Shown here piece after piece: positions 12,252 through 41,004 of a stretch of DNA of 41,935 bases (within the stretch, counting starts at the first letter, position 1; each line of letters starts with the position of its first letter). A model generated the notes under the pieces. It did not search any database and was not told the DNA's origin. It worked only from the letters and a program-made list of their open reading frames with translations. The DNA is taken from NCBI GenBank assembly GCA_946185535.1, contig CAMHJX010000026.1:1-41935 (forward strand), written 5' to 3'. The stretch comes from an uncultured Bacteroidales bacterium. Its GTDB lineage: Bacteria > Bacteroidota > Bacteroidia > Bacteroidales > F082. The position numbers and the translations under genes are program-made.

Positions 12252-12285
12252 AAAAGAATCCCCGACACATGTTCGGGGATTCTTT
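12245..12285 (-). terminator. Intrinsic terminator of the PPAD-like gene
   Basis: AAAGAATCCCCGA (12253-12265) pairs with TCGGGGATTCTTT (12273-12285), a 13-bp stem. On the minus strand a T-rich run follows. Confidence 0.85.
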
Positions 12286-12326: not shown

Positions 12327-14630
12327 TTATTTCACCACCAATTTCTTGGCTACCACGGCACCATTCTGTTCAATGATATTGACCAGATAGATGCCCTTGT
12401 TCCAATTGGCGGCATCAATGCTGACCACTTGGCCTTCGGCTTCGTGTACCTTTTGTCCAACGAGGTTATACACCTCCACCTTGGCCACATTTGCGCCTTC
12501 CACGGTGAACTGGCCCGTGGTCGGGTTGGGGTAGAGCTTGGTCTCAGCGGAAAGTTCGTTGACAGAGAAGATGTCTTCATTAATGTGGACGGCAATCTCA
12601 AAGATACCATAGTCCGTTTCGATTTCGATGCTTGTTTGCACATAGCCTTTTGCGAAATCCTTCAAACTCACGAACATAAAGGCTTCGTCGCCATTGAATT
12701 CCAAATCGAAAGGTGGAGTGGGGTTTGTTTCAATATTCAGATAATCAGTGTCTTTCTCGGCAATGGAAATAACCTTGATAATAGGAACAAAAACAGATTT
12801 ATTGAAGAAACTTGATTCAATGACCAAAGTTGGGTCATCAAAATACATTTCATTTTGGTACACGAAATTCACCATCCCTTGTTTGCTTATCATAGCAGTC
12901 ACAAGCTTTTCTCCGACAGAGGTCTGAACTTTTATCAAACTTGAAACGTAATCATCAGATGCACGGTTTGCTTTTAGCGGAAAACTGAAAAGGAAACCAA
13001 CCGAAATGGATTCCCCAACTTGCAAGTTATAGGGAAGGTTGGGAGTGTCAGGAAGCAAATAACCACCTTGCTCAGTTATGGCGTTGATTTGAACCGTGGC
13101 ATTGGTCTGGTTTTCGATGGTAAAAGCCTGTTCGTCGCCATTATGCTCAAACCACAGTGTATCCGGCGTAATCACCAACTCGCCCTGCGGCATAGGAGGC
13201 TCATGCGCCTCCATAGTGAAATGGTGCGGGTCAAGGTCGGCAAAAACAGGCTGCGTGTAGCGGTGTCCCGATTCGTCGGCACCAAACACATAATAGTCAA
13301 TCTCCGATTCACCTTGGTAGCCTTTGATGTAGCCGACATATTCGTCAGGATTGCCTGTGGCGGTCATGTGGGCTGTTTGGTAGGCACCGCCATCGATGCT
13401 ATAATACACAAGGAGTGAGTCTTGCTTCAAGTTGGCACCGCTGTAGGCGATGAACTTACTCACTACAGGAATCGAGTCTTGCCATTCTTGCTCGCCGAAG
13501 AGCACATCGCGATGGTCGACGAAGAGCATGTGGAAGTCCATCACGCCACGGGTGCGGCAGTGCAGGGCATCGGTGTTCTCCCAACCATTGTAGGTGTTGT
13601 TGGCCACGCCGATAATCTCATAGCCAGGCATGGCTTCTTGATAGACTTGAAGTGCCTGCTGGTTGTAAGTACTGTTAGTGCCAATCGGCACATAGACAGT
13701 CTTGTTGAGAATAAGGCTGTTGGTGTAAGGAGCCAAAGTGTAGCCACCGGGTTCCTGCACGCGATAAACATGGTAAGGATAACCCCAACAGCAGTTGGTG
13801 GTCGCGAAGTATTCGGCCACTTGTTCGTAATATTGATAGCGTGGATTGCTTTGCGGCAGTTGCGCAATCAAGATCTTGTCGGGAGCGAGGTACTTGCCCC
13901 AGCAGTCCACATGGGCGATATAGTCGCCTTGCGGGTCGATGGTGACATGATAAGGATTGATGCCTAAATAGTCGTTCATTCTTTGACGGACAGTGGCCTC
14001 ATTGATGCCATAGTCTTGCTGGTTTTCCTGAAACACAAGGTCATCGCTCACGCCGTGGCCGCGACCGTCTTCCATCATGTTGCCACCAGTGTGTTCCAGT
14101 CTCATTCCGTACATAGGAATCTGCCAGAAATTGGCGAACACTTGCGACATATTGTCGTCGTTGGGACGCGGACGGTTATAGATGTTGTCGACGATGGCAG
14201 GGTTGCGGTCTTCAAAGATGTACCAAGGACCGTAGTCGCGCACCCAATAGGAGTCAGACTGGGCATTCACGAAGGTGACATTGCTCATGTTGACACCTGC
14301 ATTTTGGAAAGTGCTTTGGGCTTGGCTTTGTTGCGAACCGCTAACGATGCAATATACCATGCAGTTGTTCGATAGTTGCGCGACAAGACTCTCCGGGATA
14401 CCCAAGGGATAGCGAATCATCACGCCTTGCATAGGCTCAAACTCGGCCACAAAACGCGGTGTGCCTGTCGGCGGGTCGGTCTCAACGAAAGTCATGCCAC
14501 GAGATTTGTCGTGCATTTCCTCTTCGGAGAGGTAATGCCATCTCATCCAATCGGGTTTCTTATTGTCTTGAGCCTGCATGGTAACGGCCATCAAGAGTAA
14601 AAGAGTGAAAATAGATAGTGCTTTTTTCAT
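12327..14630 (-). CDS. T9SS-secreted peptidylarginine deiminase, PPAD-like
   Basis: A 767-residue exported enzyme expected to convert peptidyl-arginine to citrulline with release of ammonia. The start at 14630 gives the signal peptide MKKALSIFTLLLLMAVTMQAQ; the open frame to 14783 adds an unlikely leader. The PAD_porph domain (about 50-370) keeps the whole constellation known from Porphyromonas gingivalis PPAD: W129 and D132 (SYWVRDYGPW), R153/R155 (YNRPRPND), Y237, H240 and D242 (YIAHVDCWGK), N304 (YTNSLILN) and nucleophile C358 (TDALHCRT). An Ig-like domain follows (about 380-460), then an extra beta domain absent from the roughly 556-residue PPAD, then a type A T9SS sorting domain (YPNPTTGQFTVEG...KLVVK). 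It probably acts at the cell surface or outside. A secreted agmatine-deiminase-like role is the main alternative. Confidence 0.9.
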   Translation of the reverse strand: MKKALSIFTLLLLMAVTMQAQDNKKPDWMRWHYLSEEEMHDKSRGMTFVETDPPTGTPRFVAEFEPMQGVMIRYPLGIPESLVAQLSNNCMVYCIVSGSQQSQAQSTFQNAGVNMSNVTFVNAQSDSYWVRDYGPWYIFEDRNPAIVDNIYNRPRPNDDNMSQVFANFWQIPMYGMRLEHTGGNMMEDGRGHGVSDDLVFQENQQDYGINEATVRQRMNDYLGINPYHVTIDPQGDYIAHVDCWGKYLAPDKILIAQLPQSNPRYQYYEQVAEYFATTNCCWGYPYHVYRVQEPGGYTLAPYTNSLILNKTVYVPIGTNSTYNQQALQVYQEAMPGYEIIGVANNTYNGWENTDALHCRTRGVMDFHMLFVDHRDVLFGEQEWQDSIPVVSKFIAYSGANLKQDSLLVYYSIDGGAYQTAHMTATGNPDEYVGYIKGYQGESEIDYYVFGADESGHRYTQPVFADLDPHHFTMEAHEPPMPQGELVITPDTLWFEHNGDEQAFTIENQTNATVQINAITEQGGYLLPDTPNLPYNLQVGESISVGFLFSFPLKANRASDDYVSSLIKVQTSVGEKLVTAMISKQGMVNFVYQNEMYFDDPTLVIESSFFNKSVFVPIIKVISIAEKDTDYLNIETNPTPPFDLEFNGDEAFMFVSLKDFAKGYVQTSIEIETDYGIFEIAVHINEDIFSVNELSAETKLYPNPTTGQFTVEGANVAKVEVYNLVGQKVHEAEGQVVSIDAANWNKGIYLVNIIEQNGAVVAKKLVVK

Positions 14631-14648: not shown

Positions 14649-14680
14649 CAAAGATACTAATTTGGGATTGCCTACGGCAA
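14649..14680 (-). promoter_or_regulatory. Promoter of the PPAD-like gene
   Basis: TTG, 21 bp, TATCTTTG (-7 box at 14649-14656) fits the Bacteroidota consensus and ends 18 nt before the ATG at 14630. Confidence 0.6.
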
Positions 14681-14787: not shown

Positions 14788-15963
14788 TCACATCAGCTTC
14801 TGATAGAATTGCCACCACTTATCGGGCAACTCGTTGCGCATGGCTTGGTCGTAGTCTTCTTTCGAGCAAGGAATGAAATGGTGCCGCTCGTATTTCTGGT
14901 CATCGTTTTGCAGGAACGACATGTCCATCCACCACTTGCCTGTGATCTTATTGCACAAAAAGACTATATCATTTTGATTATCACTAATCTGTACGATATA
15001 CCGCTTGAAATCATTGCTTCCCAAGGTAGGAATGTCGTCCTGGCGGCCGGAAAAGCCCTCAATGAAGTACCAAATCATCTCGGCGATGAGGTTTGCTGTG
15101 CGAGAGTTGATGTCGTAATGCGGATTGTATTCGAAAAAACCGATGGACGAGAGTTTGTAACTTAGTCCGGCATAGCGCGTCATTTGGCAGGCCTCCTCAC
15201 CATTGAAGCCATTGGGCGACGCGTTTTTCACACCTGGTGCATCGGCAGCGCGGACGGCTGAAATGTCGAAACTCAAGAGGTTGGCATTGCGGATAAGCGG
15301 TTCTGTCAGATCCATATTCTGCTTGATGTTGCCCAAACGATAGGCATCGAAGAGCAACTGCTTCATCAGTTCAATATTCTCCGTATCAACATAATATGAC
15401 TGGTATCCGATGTTGGTGAAGTTGAACAGGAAATTGGGCTGATGTAAAATGATGTGACTCAGATAGGAATGTGAGTTGAGGGCTTCCTTGTCATTGCCAA
15501 TGTCGAACATGGGGTCGATAGCGGCAATGTTGATGAGCTTACCTGTGGGCTCATACACTTGGTACATCGTGTAGGTGAGGTCTTGTCCCGCTCCGATAAC
15601 GATAGGCACGATTTTATTCTTCAGCAGTTCGGTAAGGACTTGGTTGACAGCAAAATAGGTATCATTCAACTCCTTCCCTATTTTGATGTCACCCAGGTCG
15701 ATGATATGAAGCTGAGGCCAATGGTTAAAAAGCTGGTAGAGTGCCTTGCGGATGTAGTCCACACCATCGGCACAGCCTTTATTGTCGACCGCACCACGTT
15801 CTTCCTTGACGCCGACAATGGCCAAATCCACACCTTCGAGGTCAGGGAAGGTGACCTCGCTGCGGTAGATATTGATGCTCTCGCCCAAGGTCTTCTTGCC
15901 CGGACGGTAGGCCTTGCTGAAACACTTCTCAGCAACAGGCTCAAGGAAAATGCTGATGTCCAT
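14788..15963 (-). CDS. Arginase-fold (ureohydrolase-like) protein with degenerate metal site
   Basis: A 391-residue cytoplasmic protein of the arginase/agmatinase/formimidoylglutamase superfamily, type seen in many Bacteroidota. The fold landmarks are present but three metal ligands are replaced: the GGDHS position reads GAGQD (Q127 for His), the DAHxD position reads DPMFD (D150, M152, D154) and the SxDxD position reads SFDIS (D233, S235). The APG and NASPNGF segments follow. It may therefore bind one metal, use another chemistry or be non-catalytic. A C-terminal extension (about 310-391) contains KWWMDMSFL. It shares an operon-like arrangement with the deoxyhypusine-synthase-like gene upstream (108 bp gap holding a repeat), hinting at arginine or polyamine metabolism. 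Confidence 0.82.
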   Translation of the reverse strand: MDISIFLEPVAEKCFSKAYRPGKKTLGESINIYRSEVTFPDLEGVDLAIVGVKEERGAVDNKGCADGVDYIRKALYQLFNHWPQLHIIDLGDIKIGKELNDTYFAVNQVLTELLKNKIVPIVIGAGQDLTYTMYQVYEPTGKLINIAAIDPMFDIGNDKEALNSHSYLSHIILHQPNFLFNFTNIGYQSYYVDTENIELMKQLLFDAYRLGNIKQNMDLTEPLIRNANLLSFDISAVRAADAPGVKNASPNGFNGEEACQMTRYAGLSYKLSSIGFFEYNPHYDINSRTANLIAEMIWYFIEGFSGRQDDIPTLGSNDFKRYIVQISDNQNDIVFLCNKITGKWWMDMSFLQNDDQKYERHHFIPCSKEDYDQAMRNELPDKWWQFYQKLM

Positions 15964-15965
15964 TC

Positions 15966-16066
15966 TTTAATGATGAATGATGAATGTGGAATGCTGAATG
16001 AAGAATGCTGAATGGTGCAATGCACTCTGGGCTTTGCTCCCATTCAGCATTCATAATTCCTAATTC
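15966..16066. repeat. GAATGCTGAATG-type inverted repeat between arginase-like and DHS-like genes
   Basis: GAATGCTGAATG near 16004-16015 pairs with CATTCAGCATTC near 16041-16052, flanked by extra ATGAATG units. Same family as at 10595 and 29480. Confidence 0.75.
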
Positions 16067-16071
16067 AGAAT

Positions 16072-17106
16072 TTACTTATATAACTTCTGCCAGTTCTTAT
16101 ACTCGCGCTCTTGCCACGGGGCATTGTGGTAGGCGTAACTGACGATGGCGGGGATGACGGTGGTGCCTTCGGCATAGACCATCTGTTGGAGCTCTTCGCT
16201 CACCTTGCCCCATGAACCAGCCTCGAGCAATGTCGATGATGAGCAGGCACCATCGCGCACATCGGCCACGGTGATTTGGATGGCATATTTGTGCATAGGC
16301 ACTTCATGGCCAAGGATTTCGGCGCAGACAACGGTGTCCTGTGCGAAGTTCTTGGGTGTGCCTCCACCAACCATAAAGAGGCCTGATTGTGGGCTGTTCA
16401 TCTTAATCTCAGTCAATTCGAGGAAGTCGGCCACCGAGTCGATGCTGACATAAGGCTTGCCGGCTTTCTTACGAAGCCACTGGTGCTTGCCGATGCCGAA
16501 GCCAGCCGAGCTGTCGCTGAAAGCGGGGCAGAAGATCGGAACGCCGCATTCGTAGCAGGTCTGGATGAGGCTCTCTTTCTTTACGCCGTGACCGTTGGCC
16601 AGCCATTTGCCGACCTCATAGAGGAACTCACGGCTGCTGTAGGGACGGCACTCCAGGGTGTCGGCCACATCGCAGGTGGCTTGGTCGCAAGCCTGCAGTT
16701 CTTCCTCGTCGATGAATGTGTCGTAGATACGGTCAATGTAGAGCTCACGCAGTTTGGTGTCGGGGATGACGTTCTCCTTCGTGCCGATGTAGTGCTTGTA
16801 GCCGAGGGCTTCGAAGAGGTCCATGTCGATGATGCTGGCACCCGTGCTGACCACGGCGTCAACCATCTTGTTTCTGACCATTTCCACATACACCTGCATG
16901 CAGCCGGCGGCCGAGGTGGAACCGGCGATGGTAAGGATGTTGGTGCAATCCTTCTCCGCGATCATCTGGCAGAGGATATCGGCGGCGCGAGCGGTGTCGC
17001 GCGAGGTGAACGACATCTTACGCATGGCGTTGATGAGTTCGGTTGAGTCGTACTTCTTAATGTCGATATGTTCGACAACATCTTTCAGTAAGTCTTTTTT
17101 CTCCAT
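16072..17106 (-). CDS. Deoxyhypusine-synthase-family protein
   Basis: A 344-residue protein of the deoxyhypusine synthase / homospermidine synthase-like family, NAD-dependent enzymes that move an aminobutyl group from a polyamine. Family marks are STSAAGCMQVYVEMVRN and DAVVSTGASIIDMDLFEALG near the N-terminus, PIFCPAFSDSSAGFG in the middle, VGGGTPKNF, and SWGK with K301 at the position of the catalytic lysine of human DHS. Bacteria do not use hypusine, so the substrate is more likely a free amine. Its neighbour is the arginase-like gene, which supports a polyamine role. The ATG at 17106 has a long leader that includes a dispersed repeat; a -7 box (TATTTTTG) stands at 17268-17275. Confidence 0.87.
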   Translation of the reverse strand: MEKKDLLKDVVEHIDIKKYDSTELINAMRKMSFTSRDTARAADILCQMIAEKDCTNILTIAGSTSAAGCMQVYVEMVRNKMVDAVVSTGASIIDMDLFEALGYKHYIGTKENVIPDTKLRELYIDRIYDTFIDEEELQACDQATCDVADTLECRPYSSREFLYEVGKWLANGHGVKKESLIQTCYECGVPIFCPAFSDSSAGFGIGKHQWLRKKAGKPYVSIDSVADFLELTEIKMNSPQSGLFMVGGGTPKNFAQDTVVCAEILGHEVPMHKYAIQITVADVRDGACSSSTLLEAGSWGKVSEELQQMVYAEGTTVIPAIVSYAYHNAPWQEREYKNWQKLYK

Positions 17107-19108: not shown

Positions 19109-19987
19109 TCAATCCTCATCTTTAACTTCTTTCGGAAGTTTTGGAGAGGTTTTTTCTATCTGTTTTTCATTGCTTGCCACGCGACGTTCTACCTTCTTGA
19201 TGTCTTCGGCTGGTGGCAGGTTTTCTGGCCGAATACCTCTTTGTCCCAACATCTGACGAACACTGATATTGTTTTGGACATGCTCTTGGGTGATGGATGC
19301 CTCGCCTTGTAGGTCTTTTTGTTCTACGTTATAGTTGGTCATTTCTGTGGCCAGGTTCTTCGCCGCAATGGTCAACGTTGGAAGGAAGTCAGCCAAAGGT
19401 CGGCTTGATTTGATGCCGAGACGTTTTTTCATGTCTTCCGTTGTGTTTCCGCCAAACAAAGCCGTATCGCCTTTCGAACGAATTCTACCGAAACCCTTGT
19501 CGTCAACGCCTCGTTCGTAAATATTACGCGACAATTGTTTTTCGGAAGAACGCAAACGTTCACGGGTTTCCAACCGCGACAGTTGGTTAAGATGCTCTGC
19601 TATCAACTCGGCTCGACGAGTTTGCAAAGCAAAATAGCCCTGCGCAAAAGCAATTTCTTCCTTTTTCGGGTCGCCATTCTGCGCAATCAGATAACAAGCA
19701 TATCGGGTAAGCATGAAATCAGTGATTTCTCGCTTTGCTCCCTTGGCCAAATCTATCATTTTCGTGACCTCACGAAAATGATCATCCACATTGATATTCT
19801 GTGTTTTACATGATTCAACAGCACGGCTTATAGCCACAAGGAAATTTTCCCAACGGGCATAACCCAAAACAGGTTGCAACTCCCTCGCAAACCACACCTC
19901 CACTTGTTCCTTACCATCATCACTTTTGATGAAATGCATTATTTCGTCAAAAGTCTGCTTATGCTGATTAATTCTTGCAATATCCAT
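19109..19987 (-). CDS. dinD: DNA damage-inducible protein D
   Basis: A 292-residue cytoplasmic protein matching the DinD family. In E. coli the protein is SOS-induced and inhibits RecA-mediated strand exchange. Visible marks are VWFARELQPVLGYARWENFLVAISRA (BRO-N-like start), FREVTKMIDLAKGAKREITDFMLTRYACYLIAQNGDP, the IAFAQGYFALQTRRAEL helix, then GFGRIRSKGDTALFGG and the C-terminal helical part with ITQEHVQNNISVRQML. The tail is lysine/glutamate-rich. A near-ideal promoter precedes it (20013-20044), so it is transcribed separately from topA, 61 bp upstream. I saw no obvious SOS box, so damage control is assumed only from the family name. Confidence 0.92.
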   Translation of the reverse strand: MDIARINQHKQTFDEIMHFIKSDDGKEQVEVWFARELQPVLGYARWENFLVAISRAVESCKTQNINVDDHFREVTKMIDLAKGAKREITDFMLTRYACYLIAQNGDPKKEEIAFAQGYFALQTRRAELIAEHLNQLSRLETRERLRSSEKQLSRNIYERGVDDKGFGRIRSKGDTALFGGNTTEDMKKRLGIKSSRPLADFLPTLTIAAKNLATEMTNYNVEQKDLQGEASITQEHVQNNISVRQMLGQRGIRPENLPPAEDIKKVERRVASNEKQIEKTSPKLPKEVKDED

Positions 19988-38239: not shown

Positions 38240-40276
38240 TCATTGTTTAACAACCTTCCTAAAAACCCGCCGTCCATCACCCAACTGCACCTTCACCAAA
38301 TACATCCCAGAAGGTAAACCGCTCAAATCAAGCTCGAAGTCAGGACTTGAAGGCGAAGTTTCCTGCAAAACATTACCCATCAAGTCCATAATTTGGCAAT
38401 GCGTGGCGTTTTCCTCCAAAGCGATGTGAATCCTGCCCGATGTAGGATTGGGATAGATTGTAAAACTTTGATTGTCAGCAAATTCATTTAAACCTGTCAA
38501 GTCATTGCCTGTGGTCCAGTTTTCGGCGAGGCTATTGTCGAGGTCTAGGTCTTTGAGTTGAAGGTAAGGCCCGTTACCATCGGCTTCCGTAGGCCAAGGC
38601 TCGCTGTCGGAATATTGCACTTGGTCGATGATGTTGCCCCAAGCATCGGCCAACTCCAGGTTTTCCGACTTGTTGTCAAGCTTGCGCATATATTGGCCGA
38701 AGGGCGTAATTTGATAGTATTCGCTAAACAACAAAGAATCGGAACAAATCACAACAGCTTGTCGACCAGCAAGATGGGCTCCATCAGGAAATTGGTAAGT
38801 GAGACCCAACTCACGGAAATAAAGGCCTGTCAAGTCCACCTCTGCATCACCATTGTTGGTGATTTCAATGAACTCAAGATGGTCGCCATCAATGCTCCAC
38901 CAGTCTTGGGGATGGTAATGGATCTTGGAGATGACCAAAGGCGGCAGATCGACATCGGAACAACCTTGTGAAGCGCCAATATGGTCGTTCAGCCAGTCAA
39001 TGCGTTGTTGAAGCCAAGTCTTCATGTCGTTCACATACTGAGCGTGTTGCGACATTTGATTCCAGCGTTGGTTGTCGCGACCGATGGCTTCCGCAATCAA
39101 TGTGTCTATCTCGTCAATGCGGTTAGAGATAAGGTTGTAGTCCAAAGGCATGCCTTCCTCGGTCAATTCAAACCAACGCTTGGCAAAATAGCAGCGAAAC
39201 GCATCCGTATCGAACAGGTCTTTCCAAAAACGCGGTCCCGTGTTGTCCTGGTTATCGAACTGCCACACATCGTAGCCACTTCGATTGCCAAAAGCGTCGT
39301 ATCCGAAAGCAAGGTTATAGTCCCAGATAGGGCCCGCCCGCAATTTGCCGCAACGGTCCTTATGGAAGAAAGTGCTTAGATGGTACACATCGACATTGGA
39401 AGTGAATTCAGCCATAATCATGAAGTCGACGAAAGAAGGGATGTCGATGACCGAAGGAATGCCTGTTGTGATGTCGGTGTCATAGTTGTGGGCCACAGAT
39501 TCAAGGTCGAGAAACACATTGTGGATATAGTCGTTCTGGGTGCTGGTGATGTTTTCGTGTTTGGGATAATGATGGATAAACTCTGTGTTGACTGGCCACC
39601 ACCAGTTCATTTGATAGGTCTGCATGGTCCATGCCACGGGGTTGTTGTCGCCGCGGTTGGCTTGCACGATATAGCCACCGGTCACTTCGGGCGGTTGGTT
39701 GCAGGTCTCGTCCATCTTCTCAATATTGACACGGTTTTTGTCCACCTTGATTTTCTCCATGAAGACATAGAGGCCTCGGTAATTGCCGTTAAGAATCACT
39801 TCGCAATACTGGCTTCTCGAGGCATATTGGCCGATTTGGTTCGATAGTTCGTAAGCCAACACATCGCGCATCCCAGTTTGGTCGTATGCCAAAGGGTTGA
39901 GGATCCAATCGTTTTCGGCAGGCATCCCGAAAAGACTGACATTATTGTTGCAGGTATTGTCATTTTGGAGTGTTGTCAAACTGTATGGTTTCTTGTCTGA
40001 AACCATCTGCGAGGAATAGCCACGACGCTCAATGCCGATGCGCCCGTCGTAGTTAAGGAATTCGAGGTTGTCGATGTCGGTCAAATAGTTGCGTGAGCCA
40101 TCCTGATGCCAGATAATCTTCATCGTAGCCAAAATTTTTGGCTCCTCAGGAATGCTGGCACCACCATCGGTCTCAATGACCACGATGGGCAGGTTGCTGT
40201 CGGTGAAGGCCTGAGCATTAACCGATAAAGTCAAGATAACCAACAAAAAAGCTATGATGTATTTCTTCATATCCAT
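38240..40276 (-). CDS. T9SS-secreted CotH-domain protein
   Basis: A 678-residue exported protein starting at ATG 40276 or 40270 (MKKYIIAFLLVILTLSVNAQ). The CotH domain (about 30-440) begins with LPIVVIETDGG and has RRGYSSQMVSDKKPYSL, YVFMEKIKVDKNRVNIEK, GGYIVQ and the GPIWDYNLAFG segment, placing it near CotH kinases, which phosphorylate surface proteins in spores. A lamin-tail-like domain (about 475-590, LVISKIHYHPQD...EFIEITNNGDAEVDLTGLYF) follows, and a type A sorting domain (FTIYPNPTSGRIHIA...RKVVKQ) ends it. Kinase activity is not certain from sequence. It follows the 241-residue secreted gene by 2 nt, so the two are translationally coupled. Confidence 0.88.
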   Translation of the reverse strand: MDMKKYIIAFLLVILTLSVNAQAFTDSNLPIVVIETDGGASIPEEPKILATMKIIWHQDGSRNYLTDIDNLEFLNYDGRIGIERRGYSSQMVSDKKPYSLTTLQNDNTCNNNVSLFGMPAENDWILNPLAYDQTGMRDVLAYELSNQIGQYASRSQYCEVILNGNYRGLYVFMEKIKVDKNRVNIEKMDETCNQPPEVTGGYIVQANRGDNNPVAWTMQTYQMNWWWPVNTEFIHHYPKHENITSTQNDYIHNVFLDLESVAHNYDTDITTGIPSVIDIPSFVDFMIMAEFTSNVDVYHLSTFFHKDRCGKLRAGPIWDYNLAFGYDAFGNRSGYDVWQFDNQDNTGPRFWKDLFDTDAFRCYFAKRWFELTEEGMPLDYNLISNRIDEIDTLIAEAIGRDNQRWNQMSQHAQYVNDMKTWLQQRIDWLNDHIGASQGCSDVDLPPLVISKIHYHPQDWWSIDGDHLEFIEITNNGDAEVDLTGLYFRELGLTYQFPDGAHLAGRQAVVICSDSLLFSEYYQITPFGQYMRKLDNKSENLELADAWGNIIDQVQYSDSEPWPTEADGNGPYLQLKDLDLDNSLAENWTTGNDLTGLNEFADNQSFTIYPNPTSGRIHIALEENATHCQIMDLMGNVLQETSPSSPDFELDLSGLPSGMYLVKVQLGDGRRVFRKVVKQ

Positions 40277-40278
40277 AT

Positions 40279-41004
40279 TTACTTCCAGAACTGCCACCAC
40301 TTCTTTTGTCGGCCTTCCACCACACGGGCAAAGCGGCTGCGCGACTTTCGCATCTTTGAGAAATGCGTTATTGTTCCAGCAGAGGGACCTTTCAATGTAG
40401 TGATATGCGACGCTGAGGCAATGAAGCCGTTCTCATCGGTGTCGTCAATACCGCCATATTTGTTCTTTTTCGAGGCAAAAACGATGATATTATCGATATA
40501 CCAACTTGTCACATAAGCTCCGTGCCCTTTAAAATAAAGGCAAAACTGTGGTGACTTTGTAGTCCATTCCTCCATGTCGAAGGTAAGCAGATATTGGCTT
40601 TGCGCGATGCTTCCCACCAAAGTGTCTTCCCAGATGCTTTCCCAGTCTTCGCCGTTTTGGGAAATGCCGATACCAATTTGCGCGTTGATTTCTCCTAGAG
40701 TGGCTTCCAGGGCATGGTTGAACTGAAAATTGATGAAATCGTATTTGTCCAACTCCACGATAGGGGTTACCAAGCGAGTCGTACCTTCAAAGTTGAAGTC
40801 GGGATACATCTGCATTTCATGAGGTTTGCACCCAGCAAAAGTCGTGTTGGAGATGTACCATACCACCCAGTCGTCGCCTTTCGCATCCCAGCCTTCTTCG
40901 AGCCAAGGGTTGAAAAAGCCCTCACACAGCACCACATCACCCTGTTGCGCGAAGAGCGGCAAAGTGAAGATGACCATAAGTAATGTGAGTAGATGTTTTT
41001 TCAT
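40279..41004 (-). CDS. Secreted choice-of-anchor-J-like protein, no sorting domain
   Basis: A 241-residue exported protein with signal peptide MKKHLLTLLMVIFTLPLFAQ. The body (about 25-185) matches the cleaved-adhesin / choice-of-anchor-J jelly roll: CEGFFNPWLEEGWDAKGDDWVVWYIS, TRLVTPIVELDKYDFINFQFNHALE and SWYIDNIIVFA. It lacks a T9SS sorting domain; instead it ends with a basic, tryptophan-rich tail (RQKKWWQFWK). It overlaps the promoter region of radA in the opposite direction, with its own -7 box at 41047-41054, and sits 2 nt before the CotH gene, pointing to a joint function at the cell surface. The role is unknown. Confidence 0.75.
   Translation of the reverse strand: MKKHLLTLLMVIFTLPLFAQQGDVVLCEGFFNPWLEEGWDAKGDDWVVWYISNTTFAGCKPHEMQMYPDFNFEGTTRLVTPIVELDKYDFINFQFNHALEATLGEINAQIGIGISQNGEDWESIWEDTLVGSIAQSQYLLTFDMEEWTTKSPQFCLYFKGHGAYVTSWYIDNIIVFASKKNKYGGIDDTDENGFIASASHITTLKGPSAGTITHFSKMRKSRSRFARVVEGRQKKWWQFWK

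Follow-up and report, generated by a model that had tools for sequence, protein, structure and literature searches.

The window analyzed here, a stretch of 41,935 nucleotides (contig CAMHJX010000026.1) from an uncultured Bacteroidales bacterium, contains a gene for a putative secreted peptidylarginine deiminase of the kind known from Porphyromonas gingivalis (PPAD). The gene is located on the minus strand, like all other features of the window described below, and extends from an ATG at 14630 to a stop at 12327 (12327..14630), exactly as given in an earlier note made from the DNA letters; the encoded protein, P0001, has 767 amino acids. Its N-terminus resembles a typical signal peptide when the sequence is read by eye (residues ~1-20, 14571..14630; two lysines, a hydrophobic core and the end ...MQA-Q), and the predicted model has a helix at residues 2-24. 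The catalytic domain (residues 47 to ~367, 13530..14492) was delimited by Pfam, the PPAD alignment and the predicted structure, with the Pfam family PAD_porph covering residues 81-360 (E-value 9.4e-27). As in PPAD, this guanidino-group-modifying fold is followed by an immunoglobulin superfamily (IgSF) domain (residues ~368-476, 13203..13529), which is covered by the alignment to the solved PPAD structure 4yt9 up to residue 473 and by superposition of the predicted model on PPAD, a check proposed in the earlier note, up to residue 476. Beyond it, the predicted model contains two additional beta-sandwich domains (residues ~482-590 and 594-690, 12561..13187), for which no Pfam family was found at an E-value of 0.01. 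The earlier note was right about the additional length compared to PPAD, but its single extra beta domain has to be replaced by two consecutive sandwiches (~484-590 and 594-690). The protein ends with a type A C-terminal sorting domain of the type IX secretion system (T9SS; residues 699-767, 12330..12536), claimed before and now borne out by Por_Secre_tail (residues 699-766, E-value 2.8e-13) and TIGR04183 (residues 699-767). The same genome encodes the T9SS translocon protein SprA and PorU-type sortases.

The five top matches of P0001 among solved structures were all PPAD, and 4yt9 matched with an E-value of 3.7e-107 across residues 48-473, which chance cannot account for. The next match, 1xkn (E-value 1.3e-9), is a chain of the agmatine deiminase type whose title reads putative peptidyl-arginine deiminase. 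In the 4yt9 alignment, the PPAD residues W127, D130, R152, R154, T180, Y233, H236, D238, C239, N297 and C351 correspond to W129, D132, R153, R155, T181, Y237, H240, D242, C243, N304 and C358 of P0001. All site residues named in the earlier note (D132, H240, D242, N304, C358 and R153/R155) are confirmed by this alignment, and Y237, which it did not name, is likewise kept. P0001 hence possesses the five catalytic residues and the three carboxylate ligands of PPAD: the guanidinium anchor D132 (14235..14237), the carboxylate ligands in R153-P-R155 (14166..14174), the stretch Y237...H240-V-D242 with the third carboxylate ligand, the catalytic histidine and a guanidinium anchor (13905..13922), N304 (13719..13721) and the nucleophile C358 (13557..13559). 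According to PMC4487231, R152 and R154 of PPAD are ligands of the substrate's C-terminal carboxylate. Y233 binds it as well and is described there as clashing with any substrate that extends further at its C-terminus.

Altogether, P0001 resembles PPAD (4yt9, 4ytb, 5ak7, 6i0x) in predicted fold, catalytic residues, R152/R154/Y233, the IgSF domain and the T9SS tail; the gatekeeper C239 is retained as C243, and proteases of the gingipain R type (Rgp-type) and gingipain K type (Kgp-type) occur in the same genome. The two proteins differ in several respects: sequence identity is 42-43%, the channel residues R252 and H258 are replaced by A256 and N262, the two beta domains ahead of the sorting tail are absent from the solved PPAD fragment (A44-A475), and the host of P0001, unlike P. 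gingivalis, belongs to a gut lineage, judged from its nearest relatives. Deimination of C-terminal arginine without a need for calcium is one of the marks of PPAD-type enzymes. Since the named contact residues are identical, we transfer the chemistry of PPAD to P0001 and consider it highly probable that P0001 is an exported PPAD-type exo-deiminase. It would cross the inner membrane by means of its putative signal peptide and the outer membrane through the T9SS, and would then convert the C-terminal arginine of peptides into citrulline, releasing ammonia. C358, H240 and N304 would carry out the chemistry, D132 and D242 would hold the guanidinium group, and R153, R155 and Y237 would hold the free carboxylate, so that internal arginines should be excluded. 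Extracellular citrullination of C-terminal arginines had been suggested before, and the kept PPAD residues together with the T9SS tail support this suggestion, with export and activity as predictions.

Homologs of P0001 were searched for in several genome sets. In a collection of named genomes, 141 loci were confirmed, 80 of which were kept; these named loci are 74-99% identical to P0001 across the best segment, and the sources, where a title gives one, are goat, sheep, yak, water buffalo, horse, and roe and red deer. Among 100 sampled relatives, 67 have a match at 1e-10, namely 55/60 genomes of the genus (a count that includes matches truncated by the end of a contig and a gene interrupted by a stop) and 12/40 genomes from other families of the order. 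At the same threshold, 78/395 genomes of a phylum sample match; 25 of these matches exceed 100 bits, i.e., the window's own, four at 42-49% identity and 20 at 30-35%.

Active-site residues were tallied over distinct sequences, leaving out exact duplicates and alignments below 300 residues (loci above L032); L028-L032 and L193 fall outside all classes. In the genus, W127, D130, R152, T180, Y233, H236, D238, C239, N297 and C351 are present in 90/90 proteins, and R154 in 89/90 (Phe in one). Ten order-level proteins retain every tallied PPAD residue (Y-type). Another group of four proteins, termed A_T, keeps R152/R154, but position 233 is Ala and position 239 is Thr (4/4). In the G_M group of the wider Bacteroidota (L008-L027, L190-L192; approx. 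28-35% identity), the catalytic residues, R152/R154 and a Met at 239 occur in 23/23 proteins, while position 233 is occupied by G, Q, V, E or P and never by Tyr. Judged from these residues, it looks as if the C-terminal-arginine lock had been lost in this group; its members are candidate bacterial endo-deiminases like mammalian PAD4. For P0001 itself, an endo-type enzyme which citrullinates internal protein arginines appears improbable. It is true that PAD4 also has counterparts of R152/R154 (R372 and R374, as stated in PMC4487231). However, the Y233 position is Ser in PAD4, but Tyr in P0001 and in 90/90 proteins of the genus.

A careful tree was built without the specificity columns 152, 154, 180, 233 and 239 and with 16 G_M rows included. 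PPAD of P. gingivalis clusters with the order-level proteins L185 and L187 (support 99/98), within the ten order-level proteins (87/87). The A_T group stands beside the rows of the genus and the order, and a branch with 100/100 support separates PPAD, the window genus, the order-level Y-type rows and the A_T group from the 16 G_M rows. A quicker tree, in which L031, L032 and the second PF04371 protein of the genome served as outgroup, gave the same groups, with long branches flagged. The phylogeny, proposed as a check in the earlier note, thus places the window protein with PPAD and not with agmatine deiminases. The window genus forms one clade together with its own tandem paralogs (100/100). 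These paralogs are second deiminase genes directly after the PPAD gene at four loci (L062, 3693-5243; L063, 12281-13924; L072, 6471-8120; L095, 5012-6655); they arose within the genus. All four retain the catalytic Cys, His, Asp and Asn, and since they carry Pro at 152, Glu at 180 and Phe at 127 instead of Arg, Thr and Trp, they probably represent a shift to a different substrate inside the genus.

The earlier note had suggested looking for arginine-specific gingipain-like proteases in the same genome, and four were found. Overall, the genome of the window has 18 PF01364 matches, and genomes in the genus sample encode 5 to 19 C25 proteins. Two of the 18 (L162, L163) are PorU-type T9SS sortases, scoring above the curated NCBIfam cut-off. 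The four Rgp-type proteins (L165-L168) retain D163, H211, C244, W284 and M288 of gingipain R in the alignment to 1cvr, and seven Kgp-type proteins (L164, L169-L174) retain T442, H444, C477, W513 and D516 of gingipain K in the alignment to 4rbm; the roles of these residues are given in PMC9559808 and PMC6426963. Solved-structure matches were strong for gingipain R (L165, 5.2e-95; L167, 3.4e-92) and gingipain K (L164, 1.1e-142; L170, 3.1e-134). L175-L179 are C25 proteins fitting neither the Rgp-, Kgp- nor PorU-type by their residues, and L176 had no match in the solved-structure search.

At a threshold of 1e-40, which in the window's genome is passed by the four Rgp-type proteins only and excludes the Kgp-type, all 60/60 genus genomes have an Rgp-like match. 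Among the 40 order-level genomes, 10 encode a Y-type PPAD and 14 have an Rgp-like match, defined by this threshold and checked at residue level for the L218 match; every one of the 10 is also among the 14 (P 1.2e-6). Two further genomes (G480, G492) combine an Rgp-like match with a G_M-type protein only. As SprA is present in 39/40 order-level genomes, the presence of a T9SS does not explain this co-occurrence: among SprA-positive genomes, Rgp-like matches occur in 10/10 with Y-type PPAD vs. 4/29 of the others (P 1.6e-6). In the phylum sample, C25 matches at 1e-20 were found in 12/20 genomes with a G_M protein vs. 6/375 others, a comparison that does not control for the T9SS.

In some relatives, the deiminase gene lies beside gingipain or M14 carboxypeptidase genes (L204, L205, L206, L100, L218). 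The fullest cluster (L204, genome G414) consists of four genes head to tail, encoding a Kgp-type gingipain, an M14 carboxypeptidase with CarboxypepD_reg, PPAD and an Rgp-type gingipain; the PPAD gene overlaps the M14 gene by 4 bp, and the Rgp-type gene follows 28 bp further. The order is PPAD, M14, a carbohydrate-binding protein and a Kgp-type protein in G415 (L205), two Kgp-type proteins and then PPAD in G398 (L206), and PPAD followed by an Rgp-type protein at L100. In G458 (L218), one of the two lineages closest to P. gingivalis PPAD, an Rgp-type protein and a subtilase precede PPAD. The closest solved chains of the cluster M14 enzyme, which has matches in 56/60 genus genomes at 1e-20, are carboxypeptidases D and M. 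These enzymes cleave off C-terminal Lys and Arg. Wider stretches were inspected around distant PPAD genes (genus members of at most 73% identity, or other families; L204-L209, L211-L220, L222, L223). Strong gingipain matches were present in 4/18 (L204, L205, L206, L218), leaving weak C25 matches in L209, L212 and L217 out of the count. L210 and L221 contain the main ortholog and a second copy, and no gingipain.

A C-terminal module of approx. 150 residues is common to all four proteins of the G414 cluster and is not called as Por_Secre_tail by Pfam. It is possibly an unnamed surface-sorting or attachment domain. Taken from L204 (10938-11384), it matches in 47/60 genus genomes, with 25 matches in the window's genome, and occurs on many large open reading frames across the genus. 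In addition, five PPAD homologs (L133, L140, L115, L100, L186) end with a type I dockerin (Dockerin_1) in place of the T9SS tail, and the Rgp-type protein L165 has a dockerin-like end (solved-dockerin matches approx. 2e-4). A cellulosome-like complex of dockerins and cohesins is unsupported, as a cohesin search gave matches in only 8/60 genomes of the genus, that of the window not among them.

At the window locus, the sequence TATCTTTG (14649..14656), its first base 26 bp ahead of the ATG, fits TAnnTTTG, which we take to be the -7 box consensus of Bacteroidota. Among 86 distinct stretches of 150 bp lying upstream of homologs in the genus (at least 60% identity), 79 contain this motif (6.5 expected from mononucleotide shuffles), and 25/86 combine it with a -33-like box (0.9 expected). 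Downstream of the gene, a terminator-like hairpin of 13 pairs is followed by a T-rich tail (12253..12285); a scan of the region yielded six such sites vs. 5.0 expected, so this one stands out by position and length only. Most likely, the PPAD gene forms a single-gene unit here. Directly upstream on the same strand (14788-17106), an arginase-family gene adjoins a gene for a 1,9-bis(guanidino)-5-aza-nonane synthase of the deoxyhypusine synthase family, possibly a guanidino route to polyamines. Together with the fold that P0001 shares with agmatine deiminases and similar chains (1xkn, 3h7k, 2jer), this could suggest a small-molecule deiminase acting on free arginine or agmatine as a partner of these genes. 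We regard this as slightly less probable still than the endo-type enzyme. The putative signal peptide and the T9SS tail imply a different compartment, and P0001 scores 46.1 bits on the agmatine deiminase equivalog TIGR03380, whose cut-off is 381.8 bits. Agmatine deiminases have no extra domains (PMC4487231). T180, R152 and R154 are kept in P0001, whereas L031 and L032, whose best match is agmatine deiminase, though below the curated cut-off, have Glu at T180 and Ala or Gly at R152. Further, the PPAD gene has its own promoter box and terminator-like hairpin. The arginase-family and deoxyhypusine-synthase-like genes adjoin it in a minority of the named loci only, an arginase gene lying upstream in just 20/70 with enough flank. 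An RND adaptor gene lies downstream in 22/74, and 43/66 loci flanked on both sides have neither neighbor; a polyamine operon was therefore rejected as a general reading. Least probable is a surface adhesin with an inactive deiminase fold, which would account for the two additional beta domains and the surface-sorting tail, but the five catalytic residues are invariant in 90/90 genus proteins. Elsewhere in the window, we noted a CotH-kinase-type protein that carries both a lamin tail domain and a T9SS tail (38243-40300), and a member of the DNA damage-inducible protein D family that has a BRO-N domain (19109-19987) and adjoins topoisomerase I.

The exo-deiminase reading of P0001 is based on sequence, predicted fold, conservation, the T9SS tail, SprA, the PorU-type sortase, the gingipains, the order-level co-occurrence and the clusters in some relatives; from these, we infer that the protein is exported and active, as well as its specificity, its coupling to gingipains and whatever benefit it brings. 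The genome content suggests a surrounding peptide-processing pathway, in which the cell's own Rgp-type proteases would most likely supply the substrates and the M14 carboxypeptidase of the D/M kind would compete for the same C-terminal arginine ends. Possible benefits would be relief of product inhibition, shielding of peptides from carboxypeptidase or release of ammonia. Beyond this, we lean towards the view that PPAD is not a virulence invention of Porphyromonas but represents one branch of an old family of Bacteroidales enzymes that deiminate C-terminal arginine. In this view, the family belongs to a secreted set for the finishing of peptides, together with gingipain R, gingipain K and M14 carboxypeptidase; gut lineages retained the set, some of them as one gene cluster, and the oral pathogen reused it.

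Several observations weigh against the exo-deiminase reading with its coupling to gingipains. T209, a residue at the base of the gingipain R S1 pocket, is replaced by Cys in each of the four Rgp-type proteins that the window's genome encodes, and L167 has Ala at E152. No gingipain or M14 carboxypeptidase gene is among the annotated neighbors at the window locus, and a gingipain match lies beside the deiminase in only 1/80 named loci (L100; flanks of at most 10 kb, some contigs shorter), so that, with the 4/18 wider stretches, clustering as a family-wide rule is unsupported. G414 with its fullest cluster is listed with 8% contamination. The P values for co-occurrence are optimistic, as genomes of one order share ancestry. 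An Rgp-like match is absent from 4/4 A_T genomes, as are C25 matches at 1e-10 (0/4) and, therefore, the PPAD family can exist without gingipain R. Finally, the branch joining the Y-type rows to the exclusion of A_T has a support of 86/40 only, a weak resolution of which of the two, the genus or A_T, stands closer to PPAD.

As a protein, P0001 adds a member to an already known kind. PMC9010743, PMC6147916 and PMC9559808 describe PPAD as exclusive to P. gingivalis or to the pathogenic members of Porphyromonas, which the distribution found here contradicts. Among the matches listed in a search of the open-access literature, no report of PPAD orthologs in gut or rumen Bacteroidales was found, which is no proof of absence. 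An orthologous group "Peptidylarginine deiminase and related enzymes" appears in a rumen metagenome table, where PPAD and agmatine deiminase are not distinguished (PMC5114307), and PMC7864903 already presents a large phylogeny of PAD-type sequences from bacteria, Bacteroidetes among them.

PPAD is central to a proposed link between periodontitis and rheumatoid arthritis. Because a bacterium whose nearest named relatives inhabit the guts of deer, goat, yak and horse has a close relative of PPAD along with proteases that could make its substrates, a tool described as special to one pathogen group looks like shared equipment of gut relatives. If the old-family reading is true, the sister groups that naturally lost Y233 would each have shifted separately to other specificities. 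If Bacteroidales of the herbivore gut do secrete this kind of exo-deiminase alongside gingipains, citrullination of C-termini by bacteria may be a normal part of digestion; the original purpose of PPAD could then be studied outside a pathogen, and it would become possible to test whether C-terminally citrullinated peptides also come from other microbes.
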